Source: Salinihabitans flavidus (GTDB taxonomy: Bacteria > Pseudomonadota > Alphaproteobacteria > Rhodobacterales > Rhodobacteraceae). From it: a DNA stretch of 64,000 nt. Each line of letters begins with the position of its first letter. Position 1 is the first letter of the stretch. Made by a program: the position numbers and the translations under genes. The notes below the pieces were generated by a model. It saw only the letters and a list, made by a program, of their open reading frames with translations, was not told the origin of the DNA and did no database searches. Where the stretch lies: the NCBI RefSeq assembly GCF_900110425.1, contig NZ_FODS01000006.1:62001-126000 (forward strand), given 5' to 3'. This document shows, in pieces, positions 7,122 to 47,027 of the stretch.

Positions 7122-7244
7122 GGCGAATCAGGGGTAACGCGCTGATTTCACTCAAAAACCGCTTTCGGTATCACGTCGGTATTACGTCGGTATCGTTTTC
7201 CGGCAGGCGCCATCGAACCCGTGCGTTAATAGTACGAGCGTTGC
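7122..7244. repeat. Dispersed 11-bp-phased repeat element, copy 1
   Basis: This non-coding element starts 9 bp after the aidB stop. A left block of 42 bp (GGCGAATC at 7122, then GGTAACGCGCTGATTT and AAAAACCGC) is followed by three 11-bp units at 7164-7174, 7175-7185 and 7186-7196 (TTCGGTATCAC, GTCGGTATTAC, GTCGGTATCGT). A GAGCGTTGC word follows at 7236. The same order occurs near 26460 and 46894. Compared with copy 3, the downstream word is exactly 11 bp closer, as if one unit were missing. A period of 11 is not a multiple of three, so this is not a coding repeat. Confidence 0.85.
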
Positions 7245-26459: not shown

Positions 26460-26544
26460 GGCGAATCGGGTTAAGCCGTTGATTTTTATGAAAATGCCAT
26501 GTCGGTATAACGTCGGTATTTTGTCGGTATCGCATCGGTGCGGT
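26460..26544. repeat. Dispersed 11-bp-phased repeat element, copy 2
   Basis: The left block starts GGCGAATCGGGTTAA (26460) with TTGATTTTTATGAAAATG, one base shorter than in copies 1 and 3. It is followed by four 11-bp units: 26501-26511 GTCGGTATAAC, 26512-26522 GTCGGTATTTT, 26523-26533 GTCGGTATCGC, and a degenerate ATCGGTGCGGT. It lies between the convergent methyltransferase-like and rhodanese genes, just before a strong hairpin. Confidence 0.85.
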
Positions 26545-26560
26545 TTGCGCTGAAGGGGCC

Positions 26561-26594
26561 GGTGAACGCAGCGTTCGGAAACGCCGCGTTCACC
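26561..26594. terminator. Two-part hairpin between convergent genes
   Basis: GGTGAACGC at 26561-26569 pairs with GCGTTCACC at 26586-26594. Inside it, GCGTT at 26571-26575 pairs with AACGC at 26580-26584 around a CGGA loop, with one A/C mismatch between the stems. It ends 15 bp before the rhodanese stop. Position fits a bidirectional transcript end, though no T-run follows. Confidence 0.6.
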
Positions 26595-46157: not shown

Positions 46158-46895
46158 ATGTTCGACATTTCCTACGCGGGGGCCGCGCTTGCCGGCCTTC
46201 TGTCGTTTTTTACGCCCTGTATTCTGCCGATGGTCCCGTTCTACCTGTGTTACATGGCGGGTATCTCCATGAACCAGCTTCAGGGGGACGGTACGATCGC
46301 GCCGGGGGCGCAGCGGCGGCTTGTCTTGTCGTCGGTTCTTTTCGCACTTGGCGTCAGCACGATCTTCGTGCTTCTGGGGCTTGGCGCGACGGCGCTGGGA
46401 CAGGCCTTCGCGCAGTGGCGGCAGCCGCTGTCCTATGTCGCGGCGGCGATTCTGGCGGTATTCGGCCTTCATTTTCTGGGGGTTATCCGGATCGGCCTGC
46501 TGTACCGCGAGGCCAAGGTCGAGAGCACGGCAGAGCCGACGACGATGATCGGCGCCTATGTCATGGGGCTGGCCTTCGGCTTTGGCTGGACGCCCTGCGT
46601 GGGGCCAGCGCTGGCGTCGATCCTGATGATCGCGAGCGGGATGGGCGACCTGTTTCGCGGGGGGCTTCTGCTGCTGGTCTACGGGCTGGCGATGACCGCG
46701 CCCTTCGTGGTGGCGGCGATCTTCGCGCGGCCCTTCCTGCGCTGGATGCAGCGCAACCGGCGGTATCTGCCCTATGTCGAGAAGGCGATGGGGGTTATGC
46801 TGATTGTGTTCGCGATCCTGATCGCCACGGACGCGGTGAACGTGATCGCCTTCTGGATGCTGGAGGTGTTTCCAACCTTCGGCAAGGTGGGATGA
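46158..46895 (+). CDS. soxV: SoxV, CcdA-family thiol-electron transporter
   Basis: A 245-residue membrane protein with about six helices of the CcdA/DsbD-beta family. The two redox cysteines lie in LLSFFTPCILPMVPFYLCYMAG and GFGWTPCVGPALASI, each in a TPC context in the membrane. It takes electrons from cytoplasmic thioredoxin to the periplasmic carriers SoxW and SoxS. It is divergent from soxS. Its stop codon lies inside the first bases of dispersed repeat copy 3. Confidence 0.94.
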   Translation: MFDISYAGAALAGLLSFFTPCILPMVPFYLCYMAGISMNQLQGDGTIAPGAQRRLVLSSVLFALGVSTIFVLLGLGATALGQAFAQWRQPLSYVAAAILAVFGLHFLGVIRIGLLYREAKVESTAEPTTMIGAYVMGLAFGFGWTPCVGPALASILMIASGMGDLFRGGLLLLVYGLAMTAPFVVAAIFARPFLRWMQRNRRYLPYVEKAMGVMLIVFAILIATDAVNVIAFWMLEVFPTFGKVG

Positions 46896-47027
46896 CGAAT
46901 CGAGGTTAACGTGCTGATATTGCGGAAAAACCGCTTTCGGTATCACGTCGGTATAACGTCGGTATTGCGTCGGTGCCGGACACCGGCCCCAACCGACGGC
47001 GGAACGGATTACCGCAGCGAGCGTTGC
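46894..47027. repeat. Dispersed 11-bp-phased repeat element, copy 3
   Basis: The element starts with GACGAATC at 46894, overlapping the soxV stop (46893-46895). Its 42-bp left block (GGTTAACGTGCTGATAT, AAAAACCGC) is followed by four 11-bp units: 46936-46946 TTCGGTATCAC, 46947-46957 GTCGGTATAAC, 46958-46968 GTCGGTATTGC and 46969-46979 GTCGGTGCCGG. GAGCGTTGC occurs at 47019, 11 bp further from the start than in copy 1, which has one unit fewer. It fills most of the gap between soxV and soxW. Confidence 0.85.

Follow-up and report, generated by a model that had tools for sequence, protein, structure and literature searches.

The operators of CarH, a MerR-type B12 photoreceptor, are described as three or four head-to-tail 11-bp repeats, each occupied by one DNA-binding domain (PMC8156234). 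Tandem 11-bp direct repeats, also three or four in number (four in 60 of 64 arrays and three in 4 of 64), make up the arrays analyzed here, of which three are located in the window, i.e., the whole 64,000-nucleotide stretch of Salinihabitans flavidus DNA under study. The CarH precedent shows that docking of one protein domain per 11-bp repeat exists. However, CarH sites are gene operators, whereas here there appear to be about 170 dispersed sites, most of which do not lie between divergent genes. Furthermore, the CarH consensus nAnnTnnACAn is not matched: the unit of our arrays, read on the other strand, is nATACCGACGn, with A2, A8 and C9 in agreement and positions 5 and 10 different, and the agreement may be due to chance, given that the alignment was made by hand and is the best of 22 possible registers.

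ParR/parC centromeres are direct-repeat arrays as well, with an 11-bp repeat in plasmid R1, and both their words and their specificity differ between families (PMC9426499), so that arrays of this type can diversify in specificity. In those systems, however, a single plasmid-borne parC site adjoins parM, whereas here 64 arrays are dispersed over 1.51 Mb, and a search of 72,556 plasmid records gave no credible match. The REP, REPIN and BIME elements are short and extragenic and number above 100 per genome (PMC2817692), and our arrays likewise come in many short extragenic copies. They differ in that the unit is not a hairpin-forming palindrome (DNA fold z of 0.80, 0.26 and -2.82 for the three window copies, with no shared structure), in that each copy is a direct array of four units, and in that different words occupy the same place across genera. 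The AIMS/KOPS-type polarity sequences are dispersed and directional, and a role in segregation has been proposed for them (PMC5993296). Compared to these 8-mers, the arrays are 44 bp long, consist of four units, and display a strand bias in the genome of S. flavidus only.

The nucleoid-occlusion proteins Noc and SlmA each bind tens of dispersed sites, which are palindromic and single and carry a conserved word. The dispersal of sites for one DNA-binding protein, in our case a putative one, is the feature in common, and the palindromic, single, conserved character of the Noc and SlmA sites is the difference. At tandem sites of the OmpR/PhoB type, 7-bp words recur with an 11-bp period and the response regulator is bound head-to-tail; the period fits our arrays, period alone being compared. 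Dispersed protein-binding sites are a known kind of element; words that are specific to a genus but occupy conserved positions are not, to our knowledge. Among open-licence papers, in which absence is weakly tested, no description of the arrays was found, and the matches listed for the array sequence look like unrelated primers; with Rfam 15 yielding no match either, the element, on whose novelty a preliminary description of this DNA took no position, corresponds to no named family in these searches.

A genome-wide family of ordered four-unit arrays

The three non-coding copies noticed in that description are present, with CGAATC at positions 7124, 26462 and 46896 and the first unit starting at 7164, 26501 and 46936. 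Their components are as follows.

7124-7163, forward strand: left block of copy 1 (CGAATC, GGTAACG, CTGATTT and AAAAACCGC)
7164-7196, forward strand: array of copy 1, three 11-bp units (TTCGGTATCAC GTCGGTATTAC GTCGGTATCGT)
7220-7244, forward strand: right block of copy 1, with GTTAA and GAGCGTTGC
26462-26500, forward strand: left block of copy 2
26501-26544, forward strand: array of copy 2, four 11-bp units, with convergent genes on either side
26559-26578, forward strand: right block of copy 2 (GTGAACGCAGCGTTCGG)
46896-46935, forward strand: left block of copy 3, directly after the predicted stop codon at 46893-46895
46936-46979, forward strand: array of copy 3, four 11-bp units
47007-47027, forward strand: right block of copy 3, with GAGCGTTGC

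GAGCGTTGC lies 72 bases from the start of unit 1 in copy 1 and 83 bases in copy 3, a difference of exactly 11, as previously noted. In all three copies, a same-strand gene end precedes the array. When as many as 3 mismatches are allowed, a pattern of three units has 5 overlapping matches in the window, all within the three arrays, and none in 100 shuffles of it.

The expectation that many further copies exist was borne out. At up to 2 mismatches, the three-unit pattern has 295 matches, overlapping within arrays, in the whole genome (4.09 Mb), with 0 matches for the reversed control pattern. A word-based scan covering 1.51 Mb of the S. flavidus genome, split over six contig pieces with the window in one, identified 64 arrays both at threshold 19 and at threshold 20, and the reversed-sequence control gave 0 at thresholds 18 to 22, 9 at 17 and 51 at 16. 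Scaling from this sample suggests about 170 arrays in the 4.09-Mb genome. The earlier count of "three or four" units holds for the window, where copy 1 has three and copies 2 and 3 have four, but across the sample four is the usual number. Among 170 neighboring word pairs at most 60 bp apart, 127 are separated by exactly 11 bp, 2 by 12, 1 by 10 and 2 by 9. Across the 60 arrays of four units, the second unit is invariably GTCGGTA (60 of 60), the seventh base of unit 4 is G in 47, and unit 1 begins with T in 33. The unit-specific bases, i.e., the unit 2 word and the G of unit 4, indicate that the units are ordered rather than plain copies produced by slippage, and that the site has both order and direction.

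Within the 1.51 Mb, all 17 matches to the left block (up to 2 mismatches) are followed by an array. The converse does not hold: by a crude test (GANTC near the expected place), the left block accompanies 40 of 63 arrays and is absent, among others, from those squeezed between close genes, such as C35:284049. Thus, the array is the core of the element. The left block is A-rich in the window copies, and an A-run usually lies just upstream of the array; the right block is weakly conserved in an alignment of 53 copies. Both blocks are common to many copies in this genome and look duplicated. When 0.73 Mb was scanned generically for repeats of three units, 25 period-11 arrays were recovered, every one of which belongs to the 11-bp family; periods 8, 10, 13, 14, 16 and 17 gave 0 or 1 array each, and periods 9, 12 and 15 gave 3 to 5. 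The 16 period-7 repeats in 0.73 Mb, considered as a second family, look like GC-rich noise. An IHF site in the left block was also considered, YAANNNNYTGATW being plausible by eye against the IHF consensus; many copies instead have CTGAAAT, and we do not claim such a site.

Placement, spacing and orientation

Judging by gene positions from a home-made gene caller, 63 of the 64 arrays are intergenic, any overlap with the end of a predicted gene being 19 bp or less; the remaining array is at a contig edge. The 63 arrays comprise 26 in convergent gaps, 16 in tandem gaps in the sense direction, 17 in tandem gaps in the antisense direction, and 4 in divergent gaps, whereas the 705 background gaps of at least 60 bp include 93 convergent, 423 tandem and 189 divergent ones. 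The arrays therefore favor convergent gene pairs, are rare in divergent gaps and are indifferent to the direction of transcription.

The arrays are also evenly spaced. In the S. flavidus genome, a single gap between arrays is shorter than 5 kb, compared to 10.9 expected, and 6 are shorter than 8 kb, compared to 17.1; the coefficient of variation (CV) of the spacing is 0.67, against 0.92 for random placement into gene gaps (p 0.0032, 5000 simulations). A second genus behaves in the same way: among the 71 arrays derived from 100 of 114 matches listed for the single-contig genome G285, the CV is 0.73, where uniform placement would give 0.98 (p 0.0037), and gaps shorter than 10 kb number 2, compared to 12.6 expected. 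All these spacing tests were chosen after the data had been seen. Counts of the arrays listed per twelfth of this chromosome (6, 7, 5, 6, 7, 7, 7, 9, 3, 3, 7 and 4, with origin and terminus uncertain) display no clear density trend.

In the S. flavidus genome, array direction agrees with the local GC skew in 45 of 62 cases (p 0.0005; 45 of 64 by contig), and with the local gene majority in only 33 of 64. Among the 71 arrays listed for G285, 44 follow the GC skew when the origin is fitted (p 0.057); by nearest sample, 31 of 53 agree (p 0.27), a result equalled by 19 of 71 circular shifts. Strand clustering of 77 arrays listed over 17 contigs gave p values of 0.06 and 0.23. Given that the orientation bias is significant in S. 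flavidus but not replicated in G285, we do not claim replication polarity.

The plasmid search mentioned above, with a 43-base array query and E of 10, returned a sole match, which is archaeal, with an E of 7 and 65% query coverage. Its score of 34 bits is attained by the same query in 55 of the 64 S. flavidus arrays. The plasmid collection includes plasmids of Roseovarius and Sulfitobacter, the words of which may differ; on this search, the arrays are likely restricted to chromosomes. A search of phages at E 0.01 gave no match. One exact GTCGGTAT array is present in a viral contig from IMG/VR (L425:7489-7518, IMGVR_UViG_3300037791_000022) and may represent a prophage or host flank.

Different words at shared positions in related genera

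At up to 3 mismatches, the S. flavidus pattern has at least one match in 46 of 394 genomes of the family, that of S. flavidus included, and at least 10 in 23; the carriers among the matches listed include Roseovarius, Pseudooceanicola, Shimia, Silicimonas, Boseongicola, Sulfitobacter and Sedimentitalea, with Roseovarius litoreus and Shimia aestuarii as cultured representatives. The reversed control pattern has 12 to 58 matches in four other genomes, and 1 to 4 in some, which revealed a second word, GTATGGCT. Thus, the 11-bp phase is conserved in relatives, as the preliminary description anticipated; other genera keep the arrays, and the word may differ. Nothing credible emerged when 20-kb samples of 17 genomes of the family were scanned generically for period-11 repeats, with 2 weak matches at a lower threshold and, in another run, 4 GC-rich matches from two genomes. 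This is a weak negative because the samples include G001 and G079, which carry arrays elsewhere; 3 of 20 samples were short contigs reading N and were either dropped or had their N matches ignored.

Comparison of the proteins flanking 218 arrays yielded 212 related pairs between different loci sets, of which only 26, some of them weak, are related on both flanks. Several of these both-flank pairs combine different words, as at valS and at the junction shared by the S. flavidus array C35:284049, Sedimentitalea L171 and L092 of genome G161. The valS array lies inside the gene in three genera (G121, G083 and Shimia abyssi, L218), with different words, and in all three the reading frame passes through the array while the loop residues differ, which suggests selection on the DNA. 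The three valS proteins, as well as the lpd protein, pass the NCBIfam cut-offs. The earlier statement that the element is not a coding repeat is accordingly true of the examined part of the S. flavidus genome but not of these three other genera.

The other shared position is upstream of lpd, where the arrays lie 10-35 bp from the start codon. Of the 60 genera surveyed, 30 have matches to the S. flavidus word or the reversed control, and the remaining 30 have no more than two, if any. A four-unit array was found in 20 of the 60, 16 belonging to the former group and 4 to the latter, on scoring against shuffles with a cut of z at least 3.3 that was set after the list had been seen, and with the row for G086 (z 3.2, another position) left out. 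Six words are used at this site. Two of them, GTCGGTAT and GTCGGCAT, are one base apart; the others are GTCGGACT, GTATGGCT with variants, GTARYTCTTTC and RTACATA. C followed by GT is common to most of the words, G079 having mostly C-AT. By eye, the arrays run against lpd (the scan ignores direction), and the near-symmetric word of G079 fits either way. In 14 of the 30 genomes picked as carriers, the lpd array is absent, indicating that sites turn over. In the genome of S. flavidus, the lpd array has a transposase-like fragment, named by eye (MRPQTNGMVERFNGRI..., G000:C40:102-354), at a distance of about 1 kb, close to the end of a contig.

Words read at lpd recur across the corresponding genomes. 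GTARYTCTT has 20 overlapping matches in G001, amounting to about 12 arrays, that of lpd included, and 0 in 7 other genomes, with a control of 0. The counts for GTCGGACT, which take in the lpd site, are 87 for G080, 15 for G343 and 0 for 6 others, again with a control of 0; matches to the S. flavidus word (up to 3 mismatches) number none in G080 and 35 in G343. RTACATA has 64 matches in G079, 3 in G121 and 0 in 6 others, with 23 control matches in G079; this test is weaker because the word is near-identical read backwards, so that the control also matches. A word can thus be read at one site and then found genome-wide, which makes the system directly testable.

Genome G343 presents a mixture of words. 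In four of its arrays (L373, L375, L377 and L379), unit 2 is GTCGGCAAAAC or GTCGGCAAAGC, and units 1 and 3 are GTCGGACT, so that each unit position seems to prefer a word of its own. Its lpd site (L371) consists of three GTCGGA units and one GTATGGCA unit, possibly an intermediate of word switching.

A putative chromosome-wide site and the alternatives

We propose, with a probability of roughly one half, that the array is a directional DNA site for a putative DNA-binding protein, with one domain per repeat, a chromosome-wide role and drifting specificity. The site would be double-stranded DNA in which each of four head-to-tail repeats of 11 bp takes up one helical turn, with optional flanking blocks; a sequence-specific protein would dock one domain on each repeat, as a tetramer or as two dimers. 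Such sites would serve the whole chromosome, in its organization, segregation or positioning, rather than the neighboring genes, and, as the specificity of the protein drifts between genera, the sites would be rewritten in place to follow.

One alternative is that the arrays are mobile repeats, dispersed in the manner of REP/REPIN elements or MITEs; they would then be non-autonomous copies in the least harmful, mostly convergent gaps, inserted perhaps via single-stranded DNA of the lagging strand. Spread by duplication is possible given the left and right blocks common to many S. flavidus copies, enrichment in convergent gaps is as expected of harmless insertion, and insertion into the lagging strand, a mode reported for other elements (PMC6006769), would be consistent with the orientation bias seen in S. 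flavidus. Nevertheless, we regard this scenario as rather unlikely, because different words at fixed places, lpd and valS, argue against simple mobility, as do the almost constant number of exactly four ordered units, the rarity of short gaps in two genera and the lack of a hairpin shared by the three window copies. The original suggestion of a "mobile or selected binding array" therefore stands in its second part, the phased array looking like a selected protein-binding site, whereas a simple mobile repeat is weakened by matching sites elsewhere that carry a different word.

The rarity in divergent gaps, with only 4 of 63 arrays there and 26 of 63 between convergent gene ends, and the even spacing, which is not expected of operators, argue against another possibility, namely, a large regulon in which a CarH-like or OmpR/PhoB-like regulator on four direct repeats controls the adjacent genes; the array inside valS in three genera is equally at odds with it. 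We therefore deem a regulon decidedly improbable, even though the three or four tandem 11-bp repeats of CarH operators, with one domain each, offer a described model (PMC8156234) and the proximity of the lpd arrays to the start codon is in its favor. Scarcely tenable is the RNA element also raised in the preliminary description, such as a 3' end stabilizer or an array for an RNA-binding protein acting after transcription: each window copy does follow a same-strand gene end, but in the 1.51 Mb the tandem arrays run with the genes in 16 cases and against them in 17, the three copies have no stable or shared fold (RNA z of -0.12, 0.60 and -1.77), and Rfam 15 at gathering score gives 0 matches in the window and 8 array loci.

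Chromosome-wide binding sites of bacteria, parS among them, are generally regarded as conserved words. In the arrays, it is the word that differs from genus to genus, with the architecture and some of the positions retained. Returning to the directional site for a putative protein, we tentatively suggest its extension to a genus-specific address code of Rhodobacteraceae, in which about 70 to 170 evenly spaced four-repeat sites may be read by one chromosome-organizing protein, with the word switching between genera and many sites staying where they are, rewritten in place even within valS. If true, such a code would resemble the coevolution seen at centromeres or in the style of PRDM9. The change of word at retained positions is a natural experiment on how a DNA-binding protein and its tens to hundreds of sites could change specificity together, and it points to a protein acting at the level of the chromosome, so far undescribed, in a family of major importance in the sea. 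Among 25 matches from a MerR_1 search of five genomes, no group was seen, by eye, in which the DNA-binding part clearly varies with the word. A MerR-type protein is encoded in all five genera examined (L380, L381, L382, L383 and L384), in open frames of 183-323 aa; its N-terminal DNA-binding domain is conserved, and 4 of the 5 proteins have a long low-complexity tail.
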